Positions 3,616-19,259 of a stretch of DNA of 64,000 nt are shown here, piece by piece (the first letter of the stretch is position 1; every line of letters starts with the position of its first letter). This DNA comes from Streptococcus hyointestinalis (lineage in GTDB: Bacteria > Bacillota > Bacilli > Lactobacillales > Streptococcaceae). The stretch lies in NCBI RefSeq assembly GCF_011039275.1, contig NZ_JAAKGB010000001.1, positions 1,178,001-1,242,000 on the forward strand, written 5' to 3'. The notes below the pieces were generated by a model. The model saw nothing but the letters and a program-made list of their open reading frames with translations, did not search any database and was not told where the DNA came from. The translations under genes were made by a program, and so were the position numbers.

Positions 3616-4984
3616 CCGTTCCTCCTACTTGTGCTTTGACGGCTTCAATCAGCCGTGACTGTTGAGCATATTTGTTTTCTAGGGCTTTAAGGATTTCCTC
3701 GTCAATAGTGCCTTCCGTTACAATGTGCTGGACGACCACAGTCTCTGCTTGTTGTCCTTGTCGCCACAGACGAGCGTTGGTTTGTTGGTAGAGTTCCAAG
3801 GACCAAGTCAGACCAAACCAAACGAGGTGGTGTCCACCTTTTTGCAGGTTCAGTCCATGACCACTACTCGCTGGATGAAGGAGACCAACTGTAATATTAC
3901 CCTTGTTCCACTCACGAAAGTCCTGCTCAGTTTTAAGGACTGTTCCCTTAACTTTGATTTTTGCCAACCGTTCCTCAATACGCTGAAGGTCGTGCTTAAA
4001 CCAATAAGCAACAAGAATTGGCTCATTATTAGCTGCTTCGATAATATCTTCAAGAGCATCCAACTTTTGATCATGGAGACTCAACACTTGATGGTCATCT
4101 GAGTAGACAGCCCCATTAGACATTTGAACCAACTTGTTTGACAGACTAGCCGCATTCGCAGCTGTCACTTCTACACCTTCTATCTCTGATAAAACGTACT
4201 CCTTCTTGAACTCTCCATACCGCTCTTTCTCTTTATCAGACATCCTCACTAGCCTCTTGGTCGATATCAATTCAGGCATTTCCAGATAATCCATGGCTTT
4301 CATGGAAATAGTGATATCGTCAATCTTGTCGAAAATCTGACACTCTGCATAGTCCATAGGGATATACTCATAGACGACATTGCCATTTCTACGACCTTCT
4401 TCAAAGTATCGGCTTCGGTATTCTCCGATGAACCGACCCAAACGTTCCCCACAATCAATGACCTTAAACTCCGCAAAGAGATCCATAAGTCCATTGGAAC
4501 TTGGTGTTCCAGTCAACCCAACCACACGTTTCATGTAGGGGCGCATCGCCATAAAGGCCTTAAAGCGTTTGGACTTCCAAGACTTGAAAGAAGAGAGCTC
4601 ATCAATGACCACCATATCCCATTTGAAGTAGGTGCTACATTGTTCCACCAGCCAAGGGAGGTTTTCTCGGTTAACAATATAGATGTCAGCATCTTTCTCG
4701 AGAGCTGCTTGTCTCTGTTTAGGTGTTCCCACAATCTTGGAATAGCGAAGGTGCTTGAGTGCCTCCCACTGCTCAATTTCATCACTCCATACCGTGTTTG
4801 CGACACGAAGGGGGGCAATCACCAAGACCTTTGAAACTTCGTAACGGTCAAACATCAGCTCATTGATAGCTGACAAGGTGGTGGCTGTCTTTCCCATCCC
4901 CATGTCTAGGATGACCGCTGCATAGGGGGTTCTTATGATGAAGTCTTTGGTGACTTCTTGATAGTCATGTAGTTTCAATTTCAT
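3608..4984 (-). CDS. SNF2-type DEAD/DEAH-box helicase of the replication module
   Basis: A 458-residue superfamily 2 ATPase. Walker A is DMGMGKT at 27-33 and motif II is IDEL at 127-130. The C-terminal RecA-like domain carries the SNF2 signature of GLNLQKGGHHLVWFGLTWS and the arginine-finger block NARLWRQGQ. Phage proteins of this class sit beside a VRR-NUC nuclease and are thought to act in DNA replication or recombination. Here the VRR-NUC gene ends 20 bases inside its start and the DUF1492 gene starts inside its end, giving a tight operon with the primase upstream. Length and domains are normal for phage helicases. Confidence 0.9.
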   Translation of the reverse strand: MKLKLHDYQEVTKDFIIRTPYAAVILDMGMGKTATTLSAINELMFDRYEVSKVLVIAPLRVANTVWSDEIEQWEALKHLRYSKIVGTPKQRQAALEKDADIYIVNRENLPWLVEQCSTYFKWDMVVIDELSSFKSWKSKRFKAFMAMRPYMKRVVGLTGTPSSNGLMDLFAEFKVIDCGERLGRFIGEYRSRYFEEGRRNGNVVYEYIPMDYAECQIFDKIDDITISMKAMDYLEMPELISTKRLVRMSDKEKERYGEFKKEYVLSEIEGVEVTAANAASLSNKLVQMSNGAVYSDDHQVLSLHDQKLDALEDIIEAANNEPILVAYWFKHDLQRIEERLAKIKVKGTVLKTEQDFREWNKGNITVGLLHPASSGHGLNLQKGGHHLVWFGLTWSLELYQQTNARLWRQGQQAETVVVQHIVTEGTIDEEILKALENKYAQQSRLIEAVKAQVGGTDG

Positions 4985-5246
4985 CTAGCACTTCTCCGAT
5001 CTTCTCAACAGTGTCTAGCACATGGACCTTGAAACCTAATCGCTCAAATAGTCTGTGCCTAGAGACTTGTAACAAACGTGGCTTTTCACCAGGGGCTTTT
5101 ACTTCCACCATGCCAATCTTGCCATTAGGTAAAAACACCAACCTATCTGGTACTCCTGCAAAAGATGGTGACACCCACTTAGGACAAATCCCACTACGCT
5201 TTCTGACTTCACTCACTAACTTTCTCTCAACAACTTTTTCTCGCAT
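4965..5246 (-). CDS. VRR-NUC domain nuclease
   Basis: A 93-residue stand-alone VRR-NUC (PD-(D/E)XK-like) nuclease. The catalytic pattern is visible as D34 in GVPDRLVF and E48-V-K50 in MVEVKAPG. I chose ATG 5246 (MREKVVERKLV) because GGAAGGATTGGGT precedes it; the longer frame to 5294 runs into a region with no ribosome site. Small VRR-NUC proteins next to phage SNF2 helicases probably form a structure-specific nuclease-helicase pair (partnership is inference). It overlaps the helicase gene by 20 bases. Confidence 0.88.
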   Translation of the reverse strand: MREKVVERKLVSEVRKRSGICPKWVSPSFAGVPDRLVFLPNGKIGMVEVKAPGEKPRLLQVSRHRLFERLGFKVHVLDTVEKIGEVLDEIETT

Positions 5247-5596
5247 ACCCAATCCTTCCGTCAGAAACATCGCCAAAGGAAAAGTGCAGTTCACGCTAGT
5301 CAGTTACATTACTTTCCTATACCTCTTTTTATCTTTTTTTATTTTTCTTTATATCTAAGTTATAGAAAAGACCTACTAAACCTGCACTTTGAAATCCCCT
5401 ATGACAACTTTTGTATATGACCTTCTCGACTTGCACTTTTTAAGACCCGTGAAAGTCGTGATAGTTTTGTCTAAACTCTTCTCACTACCAACGAACAATA
5501 ACTCTCCGTGTTTCAAAGATTTAAGTTGTGACTTGACTATCACGGCTTACACCAACACCCTCTGATGATAAAAGCAACTTTCACTGATTTTCACGG
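5247..5596. other. Repeat-rich non-coding gap in the replication operon
   Basis: About 350 bp without an ATG-initiated ORF, unusual inside an otherwise overlapping operon. It contains CGTGATAGT at 5457-5465 facing ACTATCACG at 5536-5544, a tandem CGTGAAAGT-CGTGATAGT at 5448-5465, and CTGCACTTT-type words near 5280, 5383 and 5432 (two orientations). Long T-rich runs lie at 5320-5355. Candidate roles are a replication origin or a long regulated leader. Confidence 0.4.
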
Positions 5597-7882
5597 TTAA
5601 TCAAGAAAATCATCTTCTAATTTCAACTGTAGACCTTTTACCATGACACCCTTATTAGTTCTTTTCTTGGTGAATCCAGCGTTTGCCAAAGCTGTATAAA
5701 AGTCCGTCGTGCTGCGCGTGTACTCATTGATACGGGCACAGTGAGCTCGATAAGCAGAGTAAAGTTCTCCTGATTTCTCAGTCAAGTGGTCACCGATTTC
5801 ACAACAATCTCCAAGGAATTGACCCATCCAGTCATTGGCTTCTCGATAAGCTGAGACAGAGTCCGCAACTACTTGTGGCAAGGTCAATTTGAAGTTTGCT
5901 TTGATGGCTTTTTCTGCCCCCTCAATAATCCAAGACATGATAGCTGGTGCTGCTTCGTCGTAAAGGTAGTCCGCAAAGTTTTTGATGTCTGACCGACCAG
6001 TGATTTTGGCATTAAAAGGAATGACAATCAGTCGTCTCCAAATCCCATCATCATTCGCACCTACTTTAGGCAGGTGGTTAGTGTAAAGAACCAGCGTATG
6101 TGATGGGACAAAATGGAAAGGTGCCTTGTACTTTTTCTCAGCTAAAATTTCATCTGTCGAACAGAGCTGTTTAACCATGGCTGTATTCAGTCGCATTCCC
6201 TCACTCATCTCTGAAGCAATGATAAGACGTTTCCCTTTAAGTTCAGCCATTTCTGGACTGACATTCCGTCTCACACTCATGGTCAGAGCTTCAGCCGAGA
6301 GTTTTCCTGAATAGTTACCAAGAACTCTTGCAATGGTGTTCCAAAAGGTAGACTTGCCGTTTGCACCGCTACCGTAGGCAATAATCATATGCTCTTGATA
6401 AACTTTACCAATAGCAGCCATGCCTACAATCTCTTGAACATAATTGATAAGATCTGTATCATCACAAAAGAAGGTCGCAAGGGTCTCCTGCCACAGACCA
6501 TCTCCCTTATCACTCGGAGAGGCATTGGTCATTTTGGTTAAGTAATCAGCAGAATCATGTTCCCTAATACCAGACAAGCCTTGTGATAAATCAATAGTCG
6601 CCTCTGGAGTATTCAGTAAGAGTTCATTCTTATCTAAATCAGACACACTCATGCGAACCATATGTTTGGCCATTTTGGCGATTGCTGATAAATTTCGATA
6701 GTCACGGTATTTCATAACAAACTTATAAAACTCGAGTGCTTTCTTATAGTCCTGATAAGCAACCAGTTGAATTGGTGTCTCAATCGCATTTTCTAGCTTT
6801 TTACCACCTTGTTGGATTAGCATTTCAGGAATACCAGATTGCTTCAGTTTTTGAGTGGCATTATTAAGCTTGGTTACTGCAACTTCTAGCTGCATATCAA
6901 GGAACTGATGAATTTGACGCATGGCTAACTGCTCATCTTCCACCCAGTGCTTACCATCGTAAGCGAGGTAGTCTGTTTCCCTAGTAAAGGCAATCTTGTC
7001 ACCAAACTCTCTAGCGAGAAGACCTGCTTCTCCGATATCTGAATAATCATCTGGTTGCATCTCCCCACGTTGAAACTCTTCTGGAGATTTATAATCTTTT
7101 GAGTTTTTGATGGTTTTGTTATAGAAGCGAACAGCACTGCCCCAAATGGTATCAAGCTCTGCTTTCTCAAGAGGGGGAACACATTTGAGAGCTTGTTCAT
7201 CAAAGCCGTCTCGTGCTTCTTTTGTTACACCTAATCGCTTAAGGATTTTCGCCGCAAAAACCGACATGGTTGAGTTCCGACTACCTTCTGTGATTGGTCC
7301 TGTTGGTGGTTGATAGAAATCTGCATCGAAGTCTTCTTCATCATCTTGGGAAGTCGTGTCATCAAGCAAATCCTCATCAATGGTCAACCAAGAGTCATGC
7401 CATAGGACTTGTGAGTTAGGATTCCCAAAGAAGAAACGAGCCGCATCTTTGGCATTAGTGTCAAAGATGCCATAGCAATTTACAAGTTCTTCTTTCAGTA
7501 AGGCATAGGTGTCCTTATCTGTGACTTCATTGATTTGGAAGTAGATATGGAATTTTGGTCTGGCGGCCTTATCCCCTTTTTGAACCAAATGGTTACGACT
7601 GGTCACTAAAGCAAAGTTGTAATCCGCAAAGATATCTTTAAGTAGCTCTTCCGTTACCCATTCATCAGAGTTGTCCGTATGGTCATTATCAATATCCATG
7701 ACCAATACATCTGATTTGATGAAGTTGGCATTGGAACGAGTATTATTGGTAAACAAGCCAGCCACATGGTCATAAAGTGCTATCTTTTGAAGAATTGCTT
7801 TGTCTGAAACTGTTACTTGATGAGGATAGACTGTTGTCGTTTGAATACCAGTCTGTCCAGAGTGAGATAAGGTAAATTGCAT
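5597..7882 (-). CDS. Primase-helicase (prim-pol plus D5/SF3 helicase)
   Basis: A 761-residue replication initiator. The N-terminal part has an archaeo-eukaryotic primase pattern (VMDIDND with D63 and D65, then RPKFHIYFQ near 108). A D5-type linker follows, then a superfamily 3 helicase with Walker A GSGANGKSTF near residue 505 and the downstream SF3 blocks (GKRLIIASEMSEG, then LVLYTNHLP). By family it primes and unwinds DNA at the phage origin. Similar proteins are filed as phage/plasmid primase P4 family or virulence-associated E. It is the first gene of the minus-strand replication arm and its leader carries a copy of the 32-bp bipartite motif. Confidence 0.92.
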   Translation of the reverse strand: MQFTLSHSGQTGIQTTTVYPHQVTVSDKAILQKIALYDHVAGLFTNNTRSNANFIKSDVLVMDIDNDHTDNSDEWVTEELLKDIFADYNFALVTSRNHLVQKGDKAARPKFHIYFQINEVTDKDTYALLKEELVNCYGIFDTNAKDAARFFFGNPNSQVLWHDSWLTIDEDLLDDTTSQDDEEDFDADFYQPPTGPITEGSRNSTMSVFAAKILKRLGVTKEARDGFDEQALKCVPPLEKAELDTIWGSAVRFYNKTIKNSKDYKSPEEFQRGEMQPDDYSDIGEAGLLAREFGDKIAFTRETDYLAYDGKHWVEDEQLAMRQIHQFLDMQLEVAVTKLNNATQKLKQSGIPEMLIQQGGKKLENAIETPIQLVAYQDYKKALEFYKFVMKYRDYRNLSAIAKMAKHMVRMSVSDLDKNELLLNTPEATIDLSQGLSGIREHDSADYLTKMTNASPSDKGDGLWQETLATFFCDDTDLINYVQEIVGMAAIGKVYQEHMIIAYGSGANGKSTFWNTIARVLGNYSGKLSAEALTMSVRRNVSPEMAELKGKRLIIASEMSEGMRLNTAMVKQLCSTDEILAEKKYKAPFHFVPSHTLVLYTNHLPKVGANDDGIWRRLIVIPFNAKITGRSDIKNFADYLYDEAAPAIMSWIIEGAEKAIKANFKLTLPQVVADSVSAYREANDWMGQFLGDCCEIGDHLTEKSGELYSAYRAHCARINEYTRSTTDFYTALANAGFTKKRTNKGVMVKGLQLKLEDDFLD

Positions 7883-7932
7883 ACATCATGCCTCCATCTT
7901 TTGTTGTTGATTGAGGAATTTCTCTTCCTAAT

Positions 7933-7964
7933 TTACTAAGTAAAAATCAGACAAGATTTTCCAC
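7933..7964 (-). repeat. Bipartite motif copy 1 (GTGGAAAA-N14-TACTTAGTAA)
   Basis: Minus-strand copy in the leader of the primase-helicase gene, 50 bp before its start. Both blocks and the 14-bp gap match the two plus-strand copies exactly, while the gap sequence differs. Confidence 0.8.
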
Positions 7965-7993
7965 TTAAACAGAAAATTTTTTCTAAAAAAATA

Positions 7994-8028
7994 AAAGTTT
8001 CCTATTAATTGCACAGGAAACTTTTTTT
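7994..8028. terminator. Hairpin between the divergent replication arms
   Basis: AAAGTTTCCT...AGGAAACTTT is a perfect 10-bp stem followed by T4 on the plus strand and a T-rich stretch on the minus strand. A terminator-like element between two divergent genes is unexpected. It could end a short antisense or leader RNA, or insulate the arms. Confidence 0.6.
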
Positions 8029-8053
8029 GATGAGCAAATTTTTTTCTTATCAG

Positions 8054-8085
8054 GTGGAAAAATTTATCTCAACCCTACTTAGTAA
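8054..8085 (+). repeat. Bipartite motif copy 2 (GTGGAAAA-N14-TACTTAGTAA)
   Basis: Plus-strand copy, 68 bp upstream of copy 3. It lies in AT-rich DNA between the hairpin at 7994-8028 and the first plus-strand gene. Confidence 0.8.
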
Positions 8086-8121
8086 GGTGTAAGGGATAAA
8101 AAATAAAAAATCTCTTCCAAA

Positions 8122-8153
8122 GTGGAAAATCCACTCAAAACCTTACTTAGTAA
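8122..8153 (+). repeat. Bipartite motif copy 3 (GTGGAAAA-N14-TACTTAGTAA)
   Basis: Plus-strand copy ending 16 bp before the ATG at 8170. Its left block extends to the palindrome GTGGA-AAA-TCCAC and its right block to CTTACTTAGTAAG. It immediately precedes the ribosome site AGGAGG. Confidence 0.8.
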
Positions 8154-8169
8154 GATAGGAGGACCCAAT

Positions 8170-8304
8170 ATGGCAAACGAACCATACATTGAATCTGATG
8201 ATGACGTGGCAGATACGCTTATAGCCATCAGCGTTATCTCAAAATTACTCGCTCGGAAAATTACGGAGGAAAGACAACATGAGCAAAATGAAGCAACTGA
8301 ATGA
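8170..8304 (+). CDS. Small conserved phage protein
   Basis: A 44-residue acidic protein (MANEPYIESDDDVADTL...), starting behind ATAGGAGGACCCAAT. The in-frame ATG at 8122 lies inside motif copy 3 and has no ribosome site. It has a hydrophobic helical middle (LIAISVISKLLARKI) and no recognisable domain. It is first in the plus-strand replication arm and overlaps the next gene. I do not know its function. Confidence 0.6.
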   Translation: MANEPYIESDDDVADTLIAISVISKLLARKITEERQHEQNEATE

Positions 8305-8602
8305 ACTAATTAATGAAATGGAAGGCACAGCCAAATACTACCTTCGCTTGGTAGATGAGTTCAAGAAACTTCTATCTAGTGAAGAAGAAATTGTAACAAC
8401 TAAAGAAAAACCAAAATCTGAACCTGAAAAAGAACTTAAACTAGAGGATCTCCGTGCCGTTCTTGCGACCAAAGCTAAAGATGGCTACAAGAATGAGATT
8501 CGTGCTCTTCTCAACAAATACGGTGCAGAGTCCCTGTCAGCCTTAGCTACTGAACACTACGCAGCGGTTATTGAAGAAGCTGGAGGAATCGGTCATGACT
8601 AA
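8279..8602 (+). CDS. Small phage protein of the replication arm
   Basis: A 107-residue, highly charged protein. A coiled-coil-like first half (MKQLNELINEMEGTAKYYLRLVDEFKKLL) and a lysine/glutamate linker precede a C-terminal helical domain (LEDLRAVLATKAKDGYKNEI... then IRALLNKYGAESLSAL). The C-terminal part resembles the helical repeat seen in many phage and plasmid DNA-associated proteins (LRAVL...GKK-type). Homologues are sometimes mislabelled rRNA biogenesis protein rrp5. It sits directly before a nuclease and an ssDNA-binding protein, which suggests a role in DNA replication or recombination. GGAGG precedes the start, and its stop overlaps the next ATG. Confidence 0.68.
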   Translation: MSKMKQLNELINEMEGTAKYYLRLVDEFKKLLSSEEEIVTTKEKPKSEPEKELKLEDLRAVLATKAKDGYKNEIRALLNKYGAESLSALATEHYAAVIEEAGGIGHD

Positions 8603-9716
8603 CCATGCTCTTCTCTCTGCTTCCGCATCCCACCGTTGGCTCAACTGTCCGCCCTCTGTTCGCTTAACCGAGGACTTGCCAGATGTGACCTCGGAGTTTG
8701 CCCTTGAAGGAACAGACGCGCACGAGCTTTGTGCCTATCTTCTTGAGAAAGCATTGGGCAGAAAGGCTCGCGATCCAACTGAGGACTTATCCTTCTACAA
8801 CGAAGAAATGCAAAATTGTGCCGAGGAATATCGAAACTACGTCATGGAACAAGTCGAGAAAGCCAAAGGCTACTCTCGAGATCCTACAGTTCTAGTTGAG
8901 CAACGTCTGGACTTCTCCAAATGGGTGCCAGAGGGTTTCGGTACTGGCGACTGTCTGATTGTGGCAGACGGACTTCTTCAAGTCATCGACTACAAGCATG
9001 GACTAGGCGTTCTAGTTGATGCAGACCATAACCCACAGATGATGTGCTACGCTCTTGGGGCTCTTGAAATGTTTGACGGTCTCTATGATTTTGATAAGGT
9101 CACCATGACCATCTTCCAACCACGAAAGAACAACATTTCTATCTTTGAGATGGATAAGGTTGAACTGCTTGAGTGGGCTGAAAACGAACTCGCCCCCAAA
9201 GCTGAACTCGCCTTTAAGGGCGAGGGAGAGATGACCTCCGGTAAACACTGTCAGTTCTGCAAACTCAAGAATATCTGCCGCAAACGTGCGGAGGATAACT
9301 TAGCACTCGCCAAGATGGAGTTCGCAGACCCTGCTACTCTAGACTATGAGGATATCGCAGAGATTTTGCCTAAACTGGACTTACTGATTTCATGGGCAAA
9401 TGATATCAAAGCATACGCCCTTCAAGAAGCTGCTGAAGGACACACCATTCCTGGATTTAAACTTGTAGAAGGACGTTCGGTTCGTAAGTTTTCAGATGAA
9501 ACTGCCGTCAGTCAAGCTGTGATTGAAGCTGGCTTTGACCCTTACGAAAAGAAACTCCTAACTATCACTGCCATGACTAAACTCCTTGGCAAGAAAACCT
9601 TTAACGACCTACTTGGTGGTCTGGTTGTAAAACCAAGCGGTAAAGCAACACTCGTTCCTCTTGATGATAATCGTCAAGAAATGAACTTAGCAACAAATGA
9701 ATTCAAAGAGGATTAA
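8595..9716 (+). CDS. DUF2800 PD-(D/E)XK nuclease with Cas4/AddB-like Fe-S cluster
   Basis: A 373-residue exonuclease-type protein. Catalytic residues are visible as D119 (GTGDCL) and D132-Y-K134 (IDYKHG), with a QxxxY-like helix after them (QMMCYALG). Four cysteines, C19 plus C219, C222 and C228 (HCQFCKLKNIC), match the Fe-S clasp of Cas4 and AddB nucleases. I chose ATG 8595, behind GGAGG and overlapping the preceding stop; the upstream in-frame ATG at 8571 lacks a site. DUF2800 proteins travel with DUF2815 and a family A polymerase in this phage type, and likely process ends during recombination-dependent replication. Confidence 0.9.
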   Translation: MTNHALLSASASHRWLNCPPSVRLTEDLPDVTSEFALEGTDAHELCAYLLEKALGRKARDPTEDLSFYNEEMQNCAEEYRNYVMEQVEKAKGYSRDPTVLVEQRLDFSKWVPEGFGTGDCLIVADGLLQVIDYKHGLGVLVDADHNPQMMCYALGALEMFDGLYDFDKVTMTIFQPRKNNISIFEMDKVELLEWAENELAPKAELAFKGEGEMTSGKHCQFCKLKNICRKRAEDNLALAKMEFADPATLDYEDIAEILPKLDLLISWANDIKAYALQEAAEGHTIPGFKLVEGRSVRKFSDETAVSQAVIEAGFDPYEKKLLTITAMTKLLGKKTFNDLLGGLVVKPSGKATLVPLDDNRQEMNLATNEFKED

Positions 9717-9719
9717 AGA

Positions 9720-10283
9720 ATGCCAACTAAAGTACAAACAACAAAGGTAATCACTGGTAAAAACACACGCTTCAGCTACCTGAACGCCAATGAACCCAAA
9801 TCCATTAATGGAAGCACACCGAAGTATAGCGTCTCTCTTATCATTCCAAAAGATGATATTGAGACTGTGGACAAAATCAAAGCAGCGATTGAGCTTGCCT
9901 ATAAGGAAGGCGAATCTAAACTCAAAGGTAATGGAAAATCTGTCCCTGCTCTTGAAGTATTGAAAACTCCACTTCGTGATGGAGACTTGGAGCGTCCTGA
10001 TGATGACGCTTATCGCAATGCCTACTTCGTCAATGCCAACTCACCGCATAAACCTGGTGTCGTTGACGGTAACCGCCAAGAGATTATCGATACTTCTGAG
10101 CTTTACTCAGGCATCTACGGTCGTGCGTCTATCTCCTTCTATGCCTTTAACTCTAACGGTAACAAGGGCATTGCCTGTGGTTTGAATAATCTCCAAAAAC
10201 TCCGTGATGGAGAGCCACTCGGTGGACGTACTCGTGCTGAAGATGACTTTGCGACTGATGACGATGATGATTTCTTGAACTAA
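9720..10283 (+). CDS. DUF2815 single-stranded-DNA-binding protein
   Basis: A 187-residue protein of the DUF2815 family, with a T7 gp2.5-like OB-fold pattern (VITGKNTRFSYLNAN... then PKYSVSLIIPKDD). The acidic C-terminal tail DDDDDFLN resembles the tail through which ssDNA-binding proteins contact polymerases and nucleases. It follows the DUF2800 gene by 3 bases and precedes the DNA polymerase, matching a replication fork set. By family it coats single strands during phage replication and recombination. Confidence 0.88.
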   Translation: MPTKVQTTKVITGKNTRFSYLNANEPKSINGSTPKYSVSLIIPKDDIETVDKIKAAIELAYKEGESKLKGNGKSVPALEVLKTPLRDGDLERPDDDAYRNAYFVNANSPHKPGVVDGNRQEIIDTSELYSGIYGRASISFYAFNSNGNKGIACGLNNLQKLRDGEPLGGRTRAEDDFATDDDDDFLN

Positions 10284-10301
10284 TAATGGAGGACTAATCT
10301 T

Positions 10302-10469
10302 ATGACCATTTTCTACTACTTACTTTCTGCCGTATTTGGAGCTTACCTGTTTCTCAGCATGTACCTCAATTACATGACCATCCGTGACGATATTCGTCGT
10401 GAGAGGGAGCGAAAGGCTGAAAAGAAACGTCAGACCGACAACACGACACCTCTACGACGTAGCAGATAA
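10302..10469 (+). CDS. Small membrane-anchored phage protein
   Basis: A 55-residue ORF behind GGAGG (ATG 10302). One N-terminal transmembrane helix (FYYLLSAVFGAYLFLSMYL) is followed by a strongly basic, helical tail (RDDIRRERERKAEKKRQ). It was not matched to a family. Its place between the ssDNA-binding protein and the polymerase hints at tethering of replication to the membrane, which is only a guess. Confidence 0.6.
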   Translation: MTIFYYLLSAVFGAYLFLSMYLNYMTIRDDIRRERERKAEKKRQTDNTTPLRRSR

Positions 10470-10475
10470 TATTCC

Positions 10476-10502
10476 AGGTGGCAGTACTTCTGTCACCTTT
10501 TT
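10476..10502 (+). terminator. Attenuator-like hairpin before the DNA polymerase gene
   Basis: AGGTGGCAG-TACTT-CTGTCACCT (one G-T pair) plus T4, ending 16 bp before the polymerase start codon. It would lower polymerase expression relative to the genes in front. Confidence 0.7.
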
Positions 10503-10517
10503 ACGAAAGGACAAACT

Positions 10518-12473
10518 ATGCCAATTAAAGAACTATCCATTGACTTAGAAACCTACTGCGAAGTGGACTTAAGAAAGACTGGTATCTATCGCTACGCAGA
10601 AGATGATTCCTTTGAAATACTTCTCATAGCAGTCTCAATTGACAGTGGTCCAGTGACTGTCTATGATTTAACCAAAGAAATTCTACCTCATGAAGTCTTG
10701 CATGCCCTAGTTGATGACACTATTATCAAATGGGCTTTTAATGCTTCCTTTGAACGCATCTGCCTATCTAACTGGCTAAAGAAACATCATCCAAAATTAT
10801 TGTCCGAGGGATTTCTGTCTCCTAATTCATGGCGTTGTAGCATGGTTTGGTCAGCATATCTTGGGCTACCGCTCTCTCTTGAAGGAGTCGGAACTGTTCT
10901 CAAACTTAAAGACCAAAAGTTGAAGGAAGGTGGAGGCTTAATCCGCTACTTCTGTCTCCCTTGTAAACCCACCAAAGTCAATGGCGGACGCACTCGTAAC
11001 TATCCAAATCATGCACCTGATAAGTGGTTAGCTTTCATTGATTACAATAAGCGTGATGTTGAGGTTGAACTAGCCATCAAAGAAAAACTCCGCAACCACC
11101 CTGTTCCTGACTTTGTTTGGGAGGAGTACCATCAAGACCAAGTCATAAATGATCGCGGGATTGGAATCGATGTGGATTTTGTCAAAGCTGCTATTGCCAT
11201 TGATGAAGAAAGTAAAGCCAAAATCCAAGAAGAACTAAAAGAGCTTACTGGGCTTGAAAAACCAAACTCTGTTCTTCAGATGATTGGTTGGCTACGAGAA
11301 CACGGAGTAACCACTGATTCTCTCGATAAAAAAGCTGTCAAAGAACTATTAAAGGCAGTTGATGAAAAGACAGCTAAAGTTCTTAAGTTGAGACAACAGG
11401 CAGCTAAATCCAGTGTCTCTAAATATCAAGCCATGATGAACTGCGTCTGTAAAGATGGACGAGCTAGAGGAATGTTCCAGTTCTACGGTGCTAACAGAAC
11501 AGGTCGATGGGCTGGTCGCTTAGTTCAGCTGCAAAACCTCCCACAGAACCACCTTCTTGACCTTGATGAAGCAAGAGAAATCTTCAAAACTGGTGACTTA
11601 GAAGCAACTGAACTTCTCTACGATACACAGGATACCCTGTCACAACTTATTAGGACTGCTTTTGTTCCAAGAGATGGTAAAAAGTTCATTGTGTGTGACT
11701 TCTCTGCCATTGAAGCACGAGTGCTCTCTCACTTAGCTAGTGAGAAATGGCGGATCAGAGTCTTTGAACAAAGCAAAGACATCTACTGTATGTCTGCTTC
11801 CCAGATGTTTGGAGTTCCAGTTGAGAAGCATGGTCAAAACTCCGACCTGCGTCAGAAAGGAAAGATTGCCGAGTTGGCTTGTGGCTATGGCGGGGCAATC
11901 GGTGCACTTAAAGCCATGGGGGCTATTGATATGGGGCTTAATGAGGAGGAACTTCAACCTCTTGTGGACTCGTGGCGTCAAGCTAATCCTAACATTGTTC
12001 TCTTTTGGTGGGATGTCGACAAAGCTGTAAAGTCTGCAGTAAAGTTCCAAGAGCAAACCGAAACCCATGGTATTCAATTTAAGGCAAGAAAGGGCATGTT
12101 ATTTATCACACTTCCATCTGGACGAAAACTTGCCTACGTCAAACCCAAAATGGGTGAGAACCAATTTGGTGGAGAGTCTGTCACCTATGAAGGAACAGGC
12201 ACAGCCAAACGCTGGGAAAGGCTTGAAAGCTACGGTCCAAAATTTGTCGAGAATATCGTCCAAGCTATCAGTCGAGATATCCTAGCCTACTCCATGAAAC
12301 AACTGAAAGACTTCAAGATTGTAGGTCACATCCACGATGAGGTCATCATTGAGTGTGACCAGGACCAAAGTCTCGATAAGATTGCTTCATTGATGGGAGT
12401 TGCACCAGACTGGATGTCTGATATTAACCTCAGAGCTGATGGATACGAATGTCTCTTCTATCAGAAAGACTAG
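10518..12473 (+). CDS. Family A (PolI-type) phage DNA polymerase
   Basis: A 651-residue replicative polymerase. The N-terminal 3'-5' exonuclease domain begins with SIDLETY (D9, E11). The polymerase domain shows GANRTGRWAGRLVQLQNLP, motif A CDFSAIEARVL with D394, the motif B helix QKGKIAELACGYGG, and motif C HIHDE with H606-D607. There is no 5'-3' exonuclease domain, as in most phage PolA enzymes. AAAGGA precedes the start. Together with the primase-helicase and DUF2815 protein it gives the element its own replisome core. It is the last gene of the plus-strand arm, followed by a strong terminator. Confidence 0.95.
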   Translation: MPIKELSIDLETYCEVDLRKTGIYRYAEDDSFEILLIAVSIDSGPVTVYDLTKEILPHEVLHALVDDTIIKWAFNASFERICLSNWLKKHHPKLLSEGFLSPNSWRCSMVWSAYLGLPLSLEGVGTVLKLKDQKLKEGGGLIRYFCLPCKPTKVNGGRTRNYPNHAPDKWLAFIDYNKRDVEVELAIKEKLRNHPVPDFVWEEYHQDQVINDRGIGIDVDFVKAAIAIDEESKAKIQEELKELTGLEKPNSVLQMIGWLREHGVTTDSLDKKAVKELLKAVDEKTAKVLKLRQQAAKSSVSKYQAMMNCVCKDGRARGMFQFYGANRTGRWAGRLVQLQNLPQNHLLDLDEAREIFKTGDLEATELLYDTQDTLSQLIRTAFVPRDGKKFIVCDFSAIEARVLSHLASEKWRIRVFEQSKDIYCMSASQMFGVPVEKHGQNSDLRQKGKIAELACGYGGAIGALKAMGAIDMGLNEEELQPLVDSWRQANPNIVLFWWDVDKAVKSAVKFQEQTETHGIQFKARKGMLFITLPSGRKLAYVKPKMGENQFGGESVTYEGTGTAKRWERLESYGPKFVENIVQAISRDILAYSMKQLKDFKIVGHIHDEVIIECDQDQSLDKIASLMGVAPDWMSDINLRADGYECLFYQKD

Positions 12474-12475
12474 AC

Positions 12476-12510
12476 AAAAAATCGCCACCTCATTTGAGAT
12501 GGCGATTTAA
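12476..12510. terminator. Bidirectional terminator between convergent genes
   Basis: AAATCGCCA...TGGCGATTT with an inner CTC/GAG pair, A-rich on the left and T-rich on the right. It ends both the polymerase gene and the convergent gene that stops at 12511. Confidence 0.88.
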
Positions 12511-13080
12511 TTATTTGTTTAACTCTTTGTAAAGCTCCAATCCGTCTTTCTGAACTTTATTGACCTTTTTATATCCAGCTGATTTTTTAACACCTAACTT
12601 CTCAAAGATTTCTTTATACTCATAACCTTCCAGTAGCATTTCCAAAATTTCTGGCGCTTGATAATTGGATTCAGCAAGTATTGTTTTCAAATAATCGAAC
12701 TGCTCCATTGCTAAGTAAAGTTCGATACCTTCATCAGCAATTACTAAATCTTGCTTTTCAGTGAAAGCTTCCCACGATGATATTTCTGGAGCATTCTTGT
12801 TTGGCTTACGAAAATCCTTGAGATAATCATTGACTGAGTTGTTATACCACCAGACCATTTGTTCATACTCCTCTTCTGCAACAGGTACAAAGGCTGTTAG
12901 AATTGGAATACCCATGATACGGCATTGTCGAAATGTCCCACGGATTAGACCTGAATAACTTGACGACATATAATAGCCCTGCACAAACATTGGGGCTAGA
13001 ACCTCACCCTCTAGTGGTTCTACACCAGTTGATGAAGATTGAGCTTGACAGTAGTTGAAAAAGTTGACATTAATTGGCAT
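12511..13080 (-). CDS. Orphan phage protein with C-terminal HTH
   Basis: A 189-residue protein without a family I can name. The N-terminal two thirds are mixed alpha/beta with aromatic runs (VQGYYMSSSYSGLIR, EEYEQMVWWYNN). The last 50 residues look like a sigma-region-4 helix-turn-helix (ILEMLLEGYEYKEIFEKLGV then KKSAGYKKVNKVQK). AAAGGAGTCAAACA precedes the ATG. It is transcribed away from a 370-bp palindrome-rich region and is separated from the metalloprotease gene by two terminators, so it has its own promoter. A DNA-binding regulator of the cargo or lysogeny region is the likeliest role (inference). Confidence 0.6.
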   Translation of the reverse strand: MPINVNFFNYCQAQSSSTGVEPLEGEVLAPMFVQGYYMSSSYSGLIRGTFRQCRIMGIPILTAFVPVAEEEYEQMVWWYNNSVNDYLKDFRKPNKNAPEISSWEAFTEKQDLVIADEGIELYLAMEQFDYLKTILAESNYQAPEILEMLLEGYEYKEIFEKLGVKKSAGYKKVNKVQKDGLELYKELNK

Positions 13081-13327
13081 TGTTTGACTCCTTTGACTTT
13101 GACTTGCAAAGAAAAAGGGGATGACAATGCATTATTAAATTTAAATAGTGACCTCATATGCTTTTCCTTTGCGGTTATACATAATTGGTCAACTAACCAT
13201 ACACGTTGACATTTCCTACTAGCTGGTTCTTATGGTTAATGGTCATGATCAGTGACAGAACTACTAGTAGAAATTTATATAGAGTTCTTACTCTCTATTA
13301 GTAACTCTAGTGTACTTTAAAACGAAA
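13081..13327. other. Non-coding, palindrome-rich regulatory region
   Basis: No ORF. An imperfect inverted pair TACTAGCTGGTTCT (near 13218) and AGAACTACTAGTA (near 13258) encloses GGTCATGATCAGTGAC. A second set, GAGTTCTTACTC...GTAACTC, lies near 13281-13309. The region must contain the promoter of the gene at 12511-13080. Confidence 0.4.
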
Positions 13328-13359
13328 AACCCTGTGTACCAGCCTAGGTGCACAGGGTT
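13328..13359 (-). terminator. Terminator 2 behind the metalloprotease gene
   Basis: AACCCTGTG...CACAGGGTT (9-bp stem), followed on the minus strand by TTTTTCG. The loop side contains CCTAGGTGCA (13343-13352), repeated at 13431-13440. Confidence 0.75.
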
Positions 13360-13393
13360 TAAAGTAATATCAATGATTTTCAAAAATTGAGTA

Positions 13394-13416
13394 CAAAAAA
13401 AGAGCATTTCTGCTCT
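13394..13416 (-). terminator. Terminator 1 behind the metalloprotease gene
   Basis: On the minus strand AGAGCA-GAAA-TGCTCT is followed by T7, about 35 bp after the stop codon of the metalloprotease gene. Confidence 0.85.
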
Positions 13417-13421
13417 GCCAA

Positions 13422-13440
13422 TGCACCTAGCCTAGGTGCA
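13422..13440. repeat. Perfect 19-bp palindrome
   Basis: TGCACCTAG-C-CTAGGTGCA, directly after the metalloprotease stop codon. Half of it (CCTAGGTGCA) recurs at 13343-13352. It is too symmetrical and GC-rich for a chance match in this AT-rich DNA; an operator or recombination site is possible. Confidence 0.7.
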
Positions 13441-13451
13441 AATTTATTTTT

Positions 13452-15311
13452 CTATGCCGGAATTTGTTTTACGAGTTTCTCAAACTTATCAATATCGATT
13501 CCATGGTATACAGATAAAAGTTGAGTGATATACTGCATTTTTTGGTCAGTTGGGTTAATGGTTCTGCCAGCAATAGCAAAGAATTTTTCAAGATAGATTG
13601 TTGGAATTTTCAACCCTACAAAAAGTTTCAAGAGTGTCATTTCCTCATATGAGGTACCTTTGAATTGACGAAGTTTACCTAAGAAGTTCCGATGAAGATT
13701 GGTTTGAGCCATAAATTCTTGATTATCATAACCTCGATAGTCAACGATTTTACTAACTACTTCTTCAAAAGAAAGGTGGACATCATACAAATAATCAACG
13801 ATTCCAGCATTCTCAGTGATGATTTCCTGGATATAAACATTGAAATTATCAAGTGCGACTGCCTCTTCCCTAACATCTAGTACCTCAGCATTTTGGTTAA
13901 AACCATTCAGAATTCGACCATAATCATCATCCGATAACTTAAAGAGTGTGTACTCATACTGAGTTGATAACCCAGAATTAAAGCTTAGGTATTCATAACT
14001 AAATGCTAAGCAGCATTTGCTCACGTCATTCAGCGCTTCTTCAGTTAATACTAAATGTCCGAATGGTCCAACTTTAACATAGCGAGAATCATTAAGACAG
14101 ACAAATGTATTAGCGTAGACATATTCCCCAGAGAGTAATAATTCGCTGGGCTCTTTATTAGTACTCGCTAAATTAATCAGTTCCGAAAAACCAATTGTAA
14201 AAGTCTGGTGTAGATAAATTTCTCCATTTGTCGAAGTGATGTGACTAGGAACATAGGAGCCATCAATATAGTCATATGCACTACTATTATTTGAGAAACC
14301 TAGTTCTTCTAATCGAATCTTGGCGGACTGCCTAGAAGCATGATACGCAATAGCGACCTTATCAACGGCTTTGGCCAGAAGTGATAACTCAGTCACATTA
14401 CTAAAACCAAGGTAACTGAATTCTCCCATGGTACTAATAACCATCTTCTCAACTGAGTTTTTCGGCATGAGAATTCTTGGTGCAATTCCCTTAGCTTGAC
14501 ATTCCATGGAGTACTCAGGATTATCGTTAACAAGATTGAGAGGTATTAGCTTTGGACTTCCGTAATGGTTAGAGAGCATTCGTTTGAAAGCGAAATGTTG
14601 CCAGTGATATTCCCAATGGACACATTCATGCAAAATAGAATTATTCAACTCTCCAACTCGTCTAGGAATAAGTAATTTAGCATCAACTATTAAGTCCCCC
14701 ATATTTGAGAAATACTCGAAGATTTCCCCTGTTTCTGGATCAAAAGCTTTAACAGGTTCACTGTCAAATTTGACCATGGCGCGCTGTTGCTCATTTACTT
14801 CCGATACATTCAAAAACACCACATTCAATCCCATTCGTCGTGCCAGTACCATTACATCAATTGTACCAACATTGTCAGTAGATGATGAAAATTCGGGATA
14901 ATACTTGGACAAAATATGTTTCGCAGCAAGATCGTACTCTCCACGATTCATATAGGGAACTAAATCAAGTCGCTGGGTAAAGTGGTTTTCAAGTCCTTTT
15001 GGCGCAGAGGTCCTAAAGTTCATTACTTGTAAGTCGTCTGAAACAAAATAACCATCTAACCAAAATGAAAAACGTGTTGTATAAGTCAAACCCTCACTCA
15101 AGACCTTATACTTAACTACCGTACTGCACTCAGATACAAAACTCTCACGATCAGTCCAGTATATTGTACAAAACCTTACTTGATAAATTGAAATTTCAAT
15201 GTCCTTGATGAAAAATGGAACATCATGTAGTGCATCAAGATATTCACTAATCCAACTATTAATGAATCTAGTAACATGGGGATTATTATTCAAATAGTGT
15301 TTAAAGTCCAA
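13452..15311 (-). CDS. Large ImmA/IrrE-type HEXXH metalloprotease
   Basis: A 619-residue protein. A zincin motif is clear at residues 228-232 (HECVH, in ILHECVHWEYHW), preceded by the DLIVDAKLLIPRRVGELN block typical of ImmA/IrrE peptidases. Ordinary ImmA proteins are 120-180 residues and cleave an XRE repressor. This one has a 150-residue N-terminal part with beta-rich pattern and a 330-residue C-terminal part ending in a helical segment (residues about 545-619). Two terminators follow it, so it is a single-gene unit. It lies next to a restriction-modification gene in AT-rich cargo. A repressor-cleaving or defence-associated protease are the two options. Confidence 0.72.
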   Translation of the reverse strand: MDFKHYLNNNPHVTRFINSWISEYLDALHDVPFFIKDIEISIYQVRFCTIYWTDRESFVSECSTVVKYKVLSEGLTYTTRFSFWLDGYFVSDDLQVMNFRTSAPKGLENHFTQRLDLVPYMNRGEYDLAAKHILSKYYPEFSSSTDNVGTIDVMVLARRMGLNVVFLNVSEVNEQQRAMVKFDSEPVKAFDPETGEIFEYFSNMGDLIVDAKLLIPRRVGELNNSILHECVHWEYHWQHFAFKRMLSNHYGSPKLIPLNLVNDNPEYSMECQAKGIAPRILMPKNSVEKMVISTMGEFSYLGFSNVTELSLLAKAVDKVAIAYHASRQSAKIRLEELGFSNNSSAYDYIDGSYVPSHITSTNGEIYLHQTFTIGFSELINLASTNKEPSELLLSGEYVYANTFVCLNDSRYVKVGPFGHLVLTEEALNDVSKCCLAFSYEYLSFNSGLSTQYEYTLFKLSDDDYGRILNGFNQNAEVLDVREEAVALDNFNVYIQEIITENAGIVDYLYDVHLSFEEVVSKIVDYRGYDNQEFMAQTNLHRNFLGKLRQFKGTSYEEMTLLKLFVGLKIPTIYLEKFFAIAGRTINPTDQKMQYITQLLSVYHGIDIDKFEKLVKQIPA

Positions 15312-15422
15312 TGGCTCACCACTTATCTTTCTATAGTAAATTTTTTAATATTGTTTTCTATTTTTTCTTGATGATATTATACCAGATAAAATTGAAAAAT
15401 CAATATTTCATTAACTAAAAAA

Positions 15423-15465
15423 CAATATCTTGTGCTAATGTCACTTAACGAGGCACAAGATATTG
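15423..15465 (-). terminator. Terminator of the restriction-modification unit
   Basis: Perfect 13-bp arms CAATATCTTGTGC and GCACAAGATATTG with a 17-base loop, followed on the minus strand by T6. It ends transcription from the restriction-modification gene and the small ORF. Confidence 0.85.
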
Positions 15466-15483
15466 ATTTCCTTTTTATGAATC

Positions 15484-15511
15484 ACTATCAAGCCTGGTAA
15501 TACTTGATAGT
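15484..15511 (-). repeat. Second hairpin behind the small ORF
   Basis: ACTATCAAG / CTTGATAGT, a perfect 9-bp inverted repeat with a 10-base loop, 19 bp upstream (on the minus strand) of the terminator at 15423-15465. It has no T-run and its purpose is unknown. Confidence 0.6.
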
Positions 15512-15588
15512 TTCGATTTTGCATTTACTTGAACCATTTTTCCTTTTAATTCAATCCTACTTTTAAATCATTTTTGTTACTCTGGATA

Positions 15589-15765
15589 TCAACTTCTATC
15601 GATTTTTTCTTTTAATATCTGTAATGATAAACGTAGCAAAATGACTAATTCACTTAAAGAGTAATAAAGAAATTGATTCTCCATCATATAATCTTCAAAC
15701 TGTGAAATCGAATCTAAAAAATTGGAAATTTCAGATAGTATCTCGTTATCAATATTTTTATTCAA
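15589..15765 (-). CDS. Small ORF behind the restriction-modification gene (TTG start)
   Basis: A 58-residue helical peptide (NKNIDNEILSEISNFLDSI... ending LQILKEKIDRS) with no recognised family. It has no ATG at its head. TTG 15765 lies 8 bases after AAGGAG and is the best start; TTG 15774 lies too close to the same site. The ribosome site lies in the loop of an 11-bp hairpin. It follows the restriction-modification stop by 60 bases and shares its terminator. It could be a small regulator or specificity partner, or non-functional. Confidence 0.45.
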   Translation of the reverse strand: MNKNIDNEILSEISNFLDSISQFEDYMMENQFLYYSLSELVILLRLSLQILKEKIDRS

Positions 15766-15796
15766 ATATACCAACTCCTTCCGTTGTTGGTATATT
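15765..15796 (-). promoter_or_regulatory. 11-bp hairpin presenting the ribosome site of the small ORF
   Basis: AATATACCAAC and GTTGGTATATT are perfect 11-bp arms. On the transcript the 10-base loop reads AACGGAAGGA, holding the Shine-Dalgarno sequence, and the downstream arm runs up to the TTG start. This looks like a translational control element or protein-binding hairpin. Confidence 0.65.
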
Positions 15797-15824
15797 AGCT
15801 CTTAAGATAAATTATATCAAGTAA

Positions 15825-18800
15825 TTATTCAGTCTCATTACAGATATTTAAGTAATACTCATTCAATTTCAATAAATCAGAGTCATCGACGGTATTTTTC
15901 TCATAAATCGATTTTACCAAATCTGAAATTTTTTTATGATTTGGATCGTTTTCATCATATAGTGGAAGTTTGATTTTTAAATCAATTGATATGCTCCGTG
16001 TACTAAATGTACTTAGTATATAGTTTTTGACTACCGGTGCATTTAGTACCCCACAAATATAATACGCTTCTTCCTGAGTAATGTATAACTCTAACTCATT
16101 AGCAACTTTCTCCTCGGCTCGTAGCTTCCGTTGAGAAAAATACGGTGCATGCTTTGCTGGAATAGCAGTAACTGTATCACCCCAAGAAGTTCTCATTGGA
16201 CCGAGGACTGCAGCAGCCCAATCACTATTATCTCTGAAAACAACTTTATACGGAGCATAGGTGTAAACTCCAATCTTACTTAATGAATAAAAATCATCCC
16301 CTTTTGCGATAGCCTTCGATCTTTCACTTTGTGCTCCGATTACATCTTTTTGGTTGACTAGATACTCCGCTAATCTATTTGAAGAATTGTATAAATCCAC
16401 AATTGGTACCGAAGTAGTTTCAAGTTCATTGTATGGATAAATTGCATATTCATTTTGCCAGTTTATGTTGAATTTACTAATCATTGGCCCCTTAATTAGT
16501 GGGCGCACATATTTCGTTTCAATTTTTAGAGGACCACTATGGTTAACTTTATGAACTGTTCCTTTAGTTGTATCATTTTGAAAAATCCAATTAGATTTAT
16601 TCGATGAAGTATTGTCGTCTTCCTCAATTAACATATAGACTTCTTTTGGAGTAAACTCAACACCAGATCTAGCTTTATATGAGCAGTACCCTACAATTTT
16701 AGAAAAATATTCAGCTTGACTACCATCTCTGACAAAAGTAAATCCTGATCTAGAGGAATCCACCTGAATTAATTTCCCCTCAACAAAGTCAAAATTTGAT
16801 TTTACGCTTTCAAATGAATGTTCTAAATTGATAACACTCATTTTTTTACTTCCTCTTTTCTTAGTTACAAATTCTAAAGGAAGCCCTTGCTTGTAATCAA
16901 CATAATCTCTCTTGTAAATATACGATAAAAATGCATCTTTCATATCTATAAAAGGGTGCCCTGACTTTTCCCAATCAATACACTTCTGAAGATAGAATCT
17001 TTCACCATTGTCCTCATCAATGATAAAATTCCTAAAGCCTTCATAGGAGTCTTGAGTTAGAATCGTTTTCGGCATTAAAAATGCCAGAACCCCTGTTTTT
17101 TTCAAGAAGTTTGTTGCTGTAACATGAGCAATCAATGCGCAGATGTTTAAAGAAATTGCTCCCATGTAAGTTTGACCACTAAACAGATGTCTATCAATTG
17201 AAATAGATTTAATTCTTTCAGCGTATGCACTTGGTAGAAATTCCCATTTAACCCACGGTGGATTCCCTACTACAATATCTACTTCCTTAATTGTAGTAAT
17301 TTTGATGAAATTACCAATTACCTTAATCCATAGACCATTCCAACTATTTTTATCTAGTGCAATCATCTGATCTATCATGTCCCTAAACCTAACTTCCAGC
17401 ATTGGATCAAGAGTACCAACATAGCTTTCTACGCTCTCTGATAAATACCTAAATAATAATTCCTCATTCCCTTCCTGAGCCATTTTGGCTAGGAAGCGTA
17501 TTACTTTTGAGAACTTATCCTGATCCTCAACTAATTTTACTGGAAATACTGCATTGATTTCACTTTGAATACTAGACATATCATATCTGAAACACTCTAC
17601 ATTTCCAATACTCTCCTTAGTTGGTGTAACAGCTGAATCTCCTAAATACACAGGAATTTCAAACTCCACATCTTTAGTTAGAAGCGGAGAAACTGCTAAT
17701 ATATATCCTACTCTAGATGTCAATACACTTAAAGGATTTATATCAATTCCTTTTACTCTATGTAGAATTTGCTCTAATAACTCCTTCTTTTCTTGATTCG
17801 TATAGTTAACGATATCATTCTTAGCAATAATGCTTTGAATCATTGTTATCAGGAATACACCTGAGCCGCATGTAGGATCGACAGCAATATAACTTTCATC
17901 ATTCTTAATTTGAGATACAGCTTCCTTAAGTAGACTATCCGCAAGCCATGCGGGGGTAAAATACTCTCCCAAAGAATGTCGCACCGCTTTTGGCATTATT
18001 TCAATATAAAGATCTTTAAAAATATCAGCTGAATTAATATTACTCTCCAATCCGAAAATAGAGTAGTCTTCGATTCTTGTAACAAGCTCCTTGATCAACT
18101 CAAATAACTCGTAATCCCATTCTCCATCCCATACATACCAGGAAAAAAAGTCACCTTCTAAAAGATTATGTATCCCTTGATCTGCAAAAGAATAACCATC
18201 CTCCATTTTTTGAAGAAATCTGTGTAACTGGTCTTCTTCAACTGAGGTTAAATCACTAAAGTACTTAATTTCTTCGAACGTAAATACTCTATGAACGATT
18301 TTACAAGCTATTAATTTAACAATTATCGCATACGTTGTTTGTAATGCAAATAATCCTCTATATTCAGCCTTTGGAGTATCAATTTTAATCTTAAATAGTG
18401 CACTTAATGCTTCTCTCCTTTTTGCAATATCTTGATTTTTCCCCATATCGGCTTCTGAAAGATGGAAGAGTTCTTGCCATTCCCTATGCAAAATATCAAT
18501 CTGATCGTTTTCGTCAGAATTTGATAAGATTGAATATAACTTATTGGAAATTCGCTTTGTAAGACTATCTTCGTTTTCAAGAGAAAAATCCCTTACAATA
18601 TTGTAAGAATTCAGTTGTTTTGAATCAGATGCAATAATCGCTTTAATTATTCTATCGAATGTCAAAACATCCAGTTCTTTAAAAGGAGTTGACCTGATTC
18701 CATCAATATTCTCAACAATTTCAGAAACTTTTTTTCCATCTGTAACGATCATTAGCGTTATATCAAAATTATCACGTAATTGTTTGTAATAGTTTACAAG

Positions 18801-19124: not shown

Positions 19125-19231
19125 ACTGACACCTCTTTCATTAATATTGTATCACTTTTTGAGTGGACAGCAAGTAAAAAATATATTTTTATAGTGGACA
19201 ATCAAAAAACGACATTTATGTAGATTAATTA

Positions 19232-19259
19232 TTGATATTTCCTCAAAATCTAGTATAAT
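19232..19259 (+). promoter_or_regulatory. Promoter of the HdiR-like repressor and SOS cassette
   Basis: TTGATA at 19232-19237 and TATAAT at 19254-19259 with a 16-bp spacer, 33 bp before the repressor ATG. Confidence 0.75.

Follow-up and report, generated by a model that had tools for sequence, protein, structure and literature searches.

Between the two divergent replication arms of a Streptococcus prophage, a bipartite element, GTGGAAAA-N14-TACTTAGTAA, occurs in three exact copies that point outwards to the genes on either side. What does such an element do, and what reads it? We addressed this question in a 64-kb window (the whole stretch of DNA that was analysed) and in its viral and genomic relatives. 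A first-pass annotation of the same DNA had described three 32-bp copies and had offered three roles for them: operator, phage-specific promoter or replication origin. Here we show that the element keeps a fixed geometry while its letters vary from phage to phage and that it recurs upstream of the integrase, and we argue that it is probably a promoter, with a phage-coded protein as the candidate reader.

Three directional sites between the replication arms

The three copies (sites 1–3; Table 1) lie, with 0 mismatches each, at the positions and on the strands that the first-pass annotation had given. They face the primase–helicase on one side and the DUF2800–DUF2815–polA arm on the other, again as it had stated. 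All three sit in the 287-bp gap between the primase–helicase gene and a gene for a 44-aa protein. At up to three mismatches, 0.08 copies would be expected in the window; none of 100 dinucleotide shuffles reached three copies, and the 64 kb hold no copy beyond sites 1–3 within three mismatches. In the organism's own genome, exact matches to the more general form YGGAAAA-N14-TACYTARTAA are restricted to four sites, of which the fourth is described below, and one integrase-type copy on a small contig; at ≤3 mismatches there are six matches against four for a reversed control, so loose genome-wide matching is uninformative. We recognised no description of this element in the open-access literature, which was covered mostly by listing, subscription papers lying mostly outside the scope of the search.

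Compared on replication genes alone, the late genes lying to the left of the window, the module (DUF2800, DUF2815, polA, VRR-NUC and SNF2 helicase) fits Candidatus Heliusviridae, whose description gives, in the passages concerned, the same replication genes and one subfamily of Streptococcus phages only (PMC9226167). Its passages on sigma, DUF2800 and Streptococcus name neither a regulatory element nor a sigma factor (PMC9226167). The taxonomy lines of four annotated gut phages of the group likewise tie the replication genes to Candidatus Heliusviridae, and a duf2800–gp2.5–polA module is described in PMC8093625.

Table 1 Features of the window, of the fourth site in the same genome and of related loci. 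Positions are those of the window unless a contig (G000) or locus (L) is named.
Feature	Position	Strand	Remarks
Site 1	7933–7964	−	Exact match; towards primase–helicase; predicted +1 ~7929
Site 2	8054–8085	+	Exact match; towards DUF2800–DUF2815–polA arm; predicted +1 ~8089
Site 3	8122–8153	+	Exact match; towards 44-aa first gene of right arm; predicted +1 ~8157
Fourth site	G000:C1:1155175–1155206	−	GCGGAAAA-N14-TACCTAGTAA
Third stretch, site 1	7919–7932	−	ATTAGGAAGAG; proposed start-site region; offsets 32–45 of the 39-site table
Third stretch, site 2	8086–8099	+	GGTGTAAGGG; 39-site table
Third stretch, site 3	8154–8167	+	GATAGGAGG; 39-site table
Hairpin with A/T tracts	7993–8025	−	Between outward-pointing sites; arms AAAGTTTCCT/AGGAAACTTT
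P0001	3106–3615	−	Other sigma-region-4-like protein of the module
Endonuclease-phrog protein	4965–5294		No Pfam model matched; phiStag1 gene at that place annotated VRR-NUC
D5/P4-type primase–helicase	5597–7882	−	First gene of left arm; PF08706, phrog_1883
44-aa phrog_3280 protein	8170–8304	+	First gene of right arm; phrog match
phrog_408 protein	8279–8602	+	phrog match
DUF2800 (PD-(D/E)XK-like nuclease)	8595–9716	+	PF10926
DUF2815 / Gp2.5-like ssDNA-binding and annealing protein	9720–10283	+	PF10991, phrog_112
Family A DNA polymerase (polA)	10518–12473	+	PF00476
P0002, 189 aa	12511–13080	−	Candidate promoter-reading factor; phrog_2513; C-terminal sigma-region-4-like domain
619-aa protein	13452–15311	−	phrog_4031; no Pfam or PADLOC match at 0.001
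Type IIG restriction enzyme–methyltransferase	15825–19124	−	PADLOC E 1.8e-140
Palindrome, perfect, 24 bp	19259–19282		Precedes the CI-like gene
CI/LexA-like repressor gene	19292–19990
Cadmium resistance transporter family protein	24811–25437	−	PF03596
Tandem two-dialect promoters (putative), G010	L227:8946–9037
Tandem two-dialect promoters (putative), G091	L229:5841–5988
Tandem two-dialect promoters (putative), G053	L236:5464–5559
Tandem two-dialect promoters (putative), G023	L280:600–687
Tandem two-dialect promoters (putative), G283	L272:3848–3995

A third conserved stretch and a promoter-like layout

A scan of 45 related loci at ≤3 mismatches to GCGGAAAA-N14-TACTTAGTAA selected 39 distinct sites. 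Among them the first block mostly reads GCGGAAAA, with G in 27, A in 9 and C in 3 at its first base, C in 32 and T in 7 at its second, and an invariant GGAAA; the GTGGAAAA of the first-pass annotation is a local form. The consensus is GCGGAAAA-N14-TACYTARTAA followed by n-n-T-R-n-R-A-G-G, and its invariant positions (G2 to A6, A23, C24, A27 and T34) are in part a product of the selection. The annotation's description lacks the fourth site, which is outside the window, and a third conserved stretch, which follows block 2 and consists of the invariant T at offset 34, a purine and then n-R-A-G-G.

The layout is promoter-like. GCGGAA in block 1 and ACTTAG in block 2 are separated by 17 bp and followed by the invariant T34 and the purine R35; two blocks at a spacing of 16–18 bp, a direction, a place upstream of genes and a start-site purine are the sequence features of alternative-sigma promoters. 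With 17 bp between the hexamers, a T and a purine where transcription would begin and an orientation towards genes, the sites are best read as promoters; we consider this reading likely, with the predicted start at the purine after the invariant T. A search of positions 7860–8200 for TTGACA-N16–18-TATAAT found none against 1.6 expected by chance, in weak agreement with the promoter reading. Sites 1–3 are conserved in relatives, and the primase-facing site lies at about −82 to −50 from the primase start. At site 3, GGAGG comes directly after the predicted start and is followed by the ATG of the first gene; the predicted leader, 13 nt long and beginning AGGAGG, counts against the overall explanation that we propose below.

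The third stretch would fall at the start of a transcript, which is also where an RNA-level signal for antitermination or processing might stand, in transcripts from undetected promoters. We give this reading only the slightest chance: blocks 1 and 2 are not complementary by eye, and positions 7500–20500 match no Rfam family at gathering score.

A fixed geometry with phage-specific letters

A search with the primase–helicase returned 80 viral loci. In 38 of these, upstream sites occur at ≤4 mismatches at conserved places, usually as one site towards the primase and up to two towards the other arm; at the same threshold, two of the 80 have one stray match elsewhere and 40 have none. BLAST of the intergenic stretch gave 61 phage records, all from Streptococcus. 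Close relatives share the copy number, the positions and the 8-14-10 geometry; distant phages have the same geometry with other letters, which are repeated within each phage. Self-comparison within phages yielded GACTAAA/CCCTAGTAGG (dialect 2), CCGGAAAA/TACCTATAAA (dialect 4) and further letter pairs, among them CTGATAAT/TCCTTTGA and TCCGGTCA/GTCCTTACA.

The upstream stretches of loci L075–L112 (38 loci less two short ones and four near-duplicates, giving 32) were scored against shuffled versions of themselves. In 25 of the 32 an inverted pair in the 8-14-10 frame beat 100 of 100 shuffles, mostly with other letters than those of the window; two of the 25 (L077 and L088) are close relatives of the window's phage. 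A few top pairs, such as those of L089 and L112, lie off the usual place and may be hairpins. In six of the seven failing stretches the 420 bp contain an open run of 116 to 138 codons, a hint of coding sequence and of a different gene order; in the seventh (L104), the top pair was reached by one of 100 shuffles. The two outcomes that the first-pass annotation had set against its own claim, absence of the pattern from homologous regions and random occurrence in the host genome, did not come about: homologues carry the pattern.

In a survey of 237 genomes from the genus, YGGAAAA-N14-TACYTARTAA was matched exactly 56 times, in 19 of them; the reversed control was matched four times, in four genomes. 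Homologues of P0002, a protein encoded beyond polA, occur in 25 of the 237 genomes, and 17 of the 19 motif genomes are among these (Fisher 5e-18), a co-occurrence that is mostly linkage because both reside on one prophage. Of 24 stretches fetched around P0002 homologues, 23 bear a primase, and each of these 23 has two or three copies of the site in one or other of four dialects. One dialect spans many species and several dialects occur within the genus; dialects 1 and 3 show little difference between them.

Immunity operators can also show a fixed geometry with varying letters, and in the dialect of the window block 2 is palindromic. Both points suit a reading of the elements as operators, through which a phage repressor or activator would act on ordinary host-polymerase promoters. 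As a whole, however, the elements are directional and asymmetric, and no sigma-70-type promoter lies nearby, which is a weak argument. The CI-like gene, moreover, is preceded by a perfect 24-bp palindrome, probably its repressor's own operator, and the 16-bp core of this palindrome finds no second match within three mismatches in the window. We therefore regard operators as improbable. The CI-like repressor itself was set aside as reader, given its own palindrome, whose core the elements do not share as those of a CI-type operator would.

The same element upstream of the integrase

The fourth site lies 22.8 kb to the left of the window, at a distance of 30.7 kb from site 1. It is flanked by a lysin gene (LysM, CHAP and amidase) and, in the direction in which it points, by the gene for a 413-aa serine recombinase (Resolvase, Recombinase and zinc ribbon). 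The stretch that comes next, GGTAGGAGG, is still ~130 bp short of the start codon and so is more than a mere ribosome-binding site. This integrase-type site is also present on a small contig of the assembly (G000:C3:879–910), perhaps as a second prophage end or an assembly duplicate.

Comparable sites occur in other phages. Phi1207.3 has an exact site between the amidase gene and orf55-resolvase. In phiStag1 an exact dialect 2 site stands on the integrase side, 30 kb from the replication sites, after a hydrolase gene and at the head of a cluster that ends in recombinases. The first phiStag1 gene past that site (L116:3144–3545, minus strand) encodes a 133-aa protein that matches sigma region 4 weakly and is annotated as RNA polymerase subunit sigma-70. 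The 1.2-kb stretches covered for G023 and G086 showed no recombinase; the other fetched integrase regions have a serine recombinase gene downstream of the site, in the right direction. Many integrase sites of phages with a P0002 of clade I or III have TACCTAGTAA in common. Integrase-type sites are also present in G195 (L225:9000) and G199 (L226:10001), genomes without a P0002 homologue, which counts against our overall explanation; these two sites lie between a lysin gene and a recombinase gene without a resolvase N-terminal match.

Dialect at the integrase tends to go with the clade of P0002. Among loci fetched for this analysis, to which the scan for dialect 2 with the correct spacer was limited, a dialect 2 site (≤3 mismatches) is found on the integrase side of five of six clade II prophages (phiStag1, G010, G091, G053 and G283-A; the negative is G055) versus one of 23 others (G023), for 13 of which only 1.2 kb around the known dialect 1/3 site was covered. 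The Fisher value is ~3e-4 with G099 omitted, its stretch having neither recombinase nor lysin, and 2.4e-4 with G099 counted. A related integrase module is common to phiStag1, G091, G053 and G283-A, so that, with four of the five positives on one module, there are few independent cases for the association. Tandem dialect 1/3 and dialect 2 sites, 56–64 bp apart, occur on the integrase side of G010, G053 and G023, and the nearly identical arrays of G091 and G283-A combine two degenerate dialect 1/3 sites with one dialect 2 site, 58 bp apart. Such arrays may be a record of factor changes, or may belong to an integrase that answers to several factors.

The integrase-side sites bear on the possibility that the elements are origin repeats bound by the primase–helicase or another initiator. 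Sites 1–3 lie between replication arms in AT-rich DNA and flank a perfect 10-bp hairpin, which the first-pass annotation had reported and which is real. Most close relatives have a hairpin ~130 bp upstream of where the primase starts, with stem letters other than those of the window and drawn from three sequences, and many distant loci have TATAAAAGGAAGCG or similar at the hairpin place. The hairpin may be an origin element or a terminator; since the sites point outward, it would escape transcription from them. Yet the same element precedes the integrase ~30 kb away, and the primase follows motif type only weakly (AUC 0.65, 12 changes on its tree; see below). Among the roles that the annotation had offered, this favours the promoter and makes origin repeats very unlikely. 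An iteron origin was set aside, the repeats not being confined to an origin.

One genome carries two dialects. In G283 two such prophages lie on one contig with a different dialect in each: in G283-A, whose P0002 belongs to clade II (95% to clade II), the two replication sites are in dialect 2 with 1 mismatch each, as is the integrase site with 2 mismatches, and in G283-B (clade I, 86% to P0002) dialect 1 is used by the replication sites (0–2 mismatches) and by the integrase site (1 mismatch). Because each prophage uses its own dialect at replication and integrase sites alike, the reader of the sites is probably phage-coded. A host-coded reader has a precedent in S. aureus prophages, for which PMC2869324 describes a host sigma-H promoter element at the integrase gene, int. 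Our element is likewise conserved upstream of a prophage integrase gene, and the S. aureus element is read by an alternative sigma rather than by sigma-A; in that case, however, the factor is the host's and one consensus serves nearly all prophages compared, whereas the dialect described here follows the phage and is common to integrase and replication arms. Promoters of a host alternative sigma factor are thus extremely unlikely: the two dialects in G283 do not fit one host-set consensus, and one dialect spans many species where several coexist in the genus.

P0002 as candidate reader

The homologue of P0002 in phiStag1 (30% identical, E 9e-22) is annotated as a sigma-70 family sigma factor. 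In an AlphaFold2 model of P0002 (mean pLDDT 75.5) the N-terminal part is beta-beta-beta-alpha and the C-terminal part is helical. Residues 123–189 of the protein align best with SigR region 4 (Z 8.0, 2.1 Å, 64 aligned), a match at fold level only, with a Z near 8 that is common according to the tool's own warning; the first 12 rows of this comparison are sigma factors by title or chain. Foldseek placed M. tuberculosis SigH in its first three PDB rows at weak E values of 0.25–0.31, and the best match among viral models is an 'ECF sigma factor' (E 3e-5). The sequence evidence is weak: TIGR02937 matches at 2e-4, below its cut-off, no Pfam family matches at cut-off, and a PDB sequence search with the P0002 profile gave weak matches only (best E 0.003). 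The N-terminal 112 residues, predicted as beta-beta-beta-alpha (pLDDT 75.2), reached a best Z of 2.6, and a search for sigma region 2 among the matches listed for them gave no sigma row. The P0002 profile matched P0001, the other sigma-region-4-like protein of the module, with a probability of 1.4%. P0002 may thus work like a sigma factor. Upstream of its gene, positions 13081–13450 have many inverted repeats, with TTGACC/GGTCA words conserved in six aligned phages; no 32-bp site is evident there by eye in the same six.

The promoters are probably read by a phage-coded factor, and we rate it at about an even chance that this factor is P0002. The best explanation as a whole, which we hold with moderate confidence, is accordingly framed as a phage-specific promoter class with P0002 as its most likely reader. 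Block 1 would serve as −35 (GCGGAA) and block 2 as −10 (ACTTAG), with the start at the purine behind the invariant T. P0002, sigma-region-4-like with a different N-terminal domain, would bring host RNA polymerase to the primase–helicase arm, the DUF2800–DUF2815–polA arm and, via the fourth site ~30 kb off, the serine integrase; as to timing, we infer that excision and replication genes would be switched on together. Lineages would have altered the letters of both blocks and kept the geometry, leaving one promoter dialect per lineage.

Co-variation of motif and genes

To compare genes as readers, we started from 70 loci and left out 10 in which P0002, phrog_3280 or another gene was lacking or incomplete and 15 with duplicate P0002, leaving 45. 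Over these, the correlation of motif distance with gene distance (rho) is 0.46 for P0002, 0.69 for phrog_3280 and 0.28–0.36 for primase, phrog_408, DUF2800, DUF2815 and polA; when the other genes are held, P0002 keeps a partial correlation of 0.23 and phrog_3280 one of 0.57, and no other gene exceeds 0.11. On gene trees motif type changes 7 times for P0002 and 3 times for phrog_3280, against 10 for polA and phrog_408, 12 for primase and 13 each for DUF2800, DUF2815, VRR-NUC, helicase and P0001 (shuffled means ~19–20, and 13.8 for P0001 over 37 rows). The AUC for motif type is 0.83 for P0002, 0.92 for phrog_3280 and 0.62–0.66 for the genes between and the primase. In 44-residue windows it is 0.78–0.83 for P0002, 0.59–0.70 for polA, 0.60–0.67 for DUF2815, 0.55–0.67 for DUF2800 and 0.52–0.74 for primase. 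By tree and AUC, then, motif type is tracked more closely by P0002, more than 4 kb from the sites, than by the intervening genes. Nearest-neighbour accuracy discriminates less: at 0.87, P0002 is about level with phrog_408 (0.85) and the first 44 residues of the primase (0.87), with polA and whole primase at 0.79 and phrog_3280 at 0.96.

The clade of P0002 and the replication dialect disagree in four of the 45 distinct loci: L064 (clade II, dialect 3), L208, which is G053 (clade II, dialect 1; a one-contig genome), L065 (clade III, dialect 1; shares its P0002 protein with G280) and L077 (clade I, dialect 3). As dialects 1 and 3 differ little and many integrase sites of clades I and III have TACCTAGTAA in common, only L064 and G053 cross the deep divide. 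The integrase side of G053 combines a dialect 1/3 site with a dialect 2 site that is exact. Discordance from wrong joins in draft IMG contigs is possible.

These four loci, and the closer tracking of motif type by phrog_3280, fit promoters that some other phage protein reads, or that P0002 reads only jointly with a partner such as phrog_3280; on its own P0002 would be a linked bystander. So do the lack of a recognisable sigma region 2 in P0002 and the finding of a P0002-like gene beyond polA in two of 28 distant loci but not in the other 26, several contigs ending there. Against this, P0001 fails to follow motif type, its 13 changes standing close to the shuffled 13.8, and was set aside as reader. 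The phrog_3280 protein has only 44 residues and a core common across dialects, and most of its variation falls in the first codons, next to site 3; linkage can explain its association, and it too was set aside. We take another or partnered reader to be possible, if somewhat unlikely, and keep P0002 as the leading candidate.

Discussion

Phage-coded sigma factors such as SPO1 gp28 and T4 gp55 redirect host RNA polymerase to phage-specific promoters. P0002 differs in having only a sigma-region-4-like domain, joined to another N-terminal domain, and the phage group described here differs in having several promoter dialects. In phage lambda, CII is one factor for pRE, pI and paQ, the integrase promoter included; its target is a repeat that brackets a poor −35, the −10 being left to host sigma-70. 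The arrangement that we propose is similar in that a single phage factor would act at a small number of promoters, the one before the integrase among them, and dissimilar in that the −10 letters also vary by phage.

A further-reaching version, speculative and in our view unlikely, would make P0002 the founder of a factor class in which the region-4 domain reads the −35 and a non-region-2 domain helps with the −10. Mutually unintelligible dialects would then stop co-resident prophages from switching each other on, and the tandem two-dialect integrase promoters (56–64 bp) would be listeners, permitting excision upon another phage's factor.

If the promoter class and its reader are as we propose, a widespread prophage group would start transcription by a code of its own, one that has few targets and for which a candidate reader can be named. 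Its natural dialects lend themselves to swap tests of which domain reads which block and of how specificity can change in evolution without loss of function. The code would also help in predicting which prophage genes are induced together and whether prophages of one cell engage in cross-talk.
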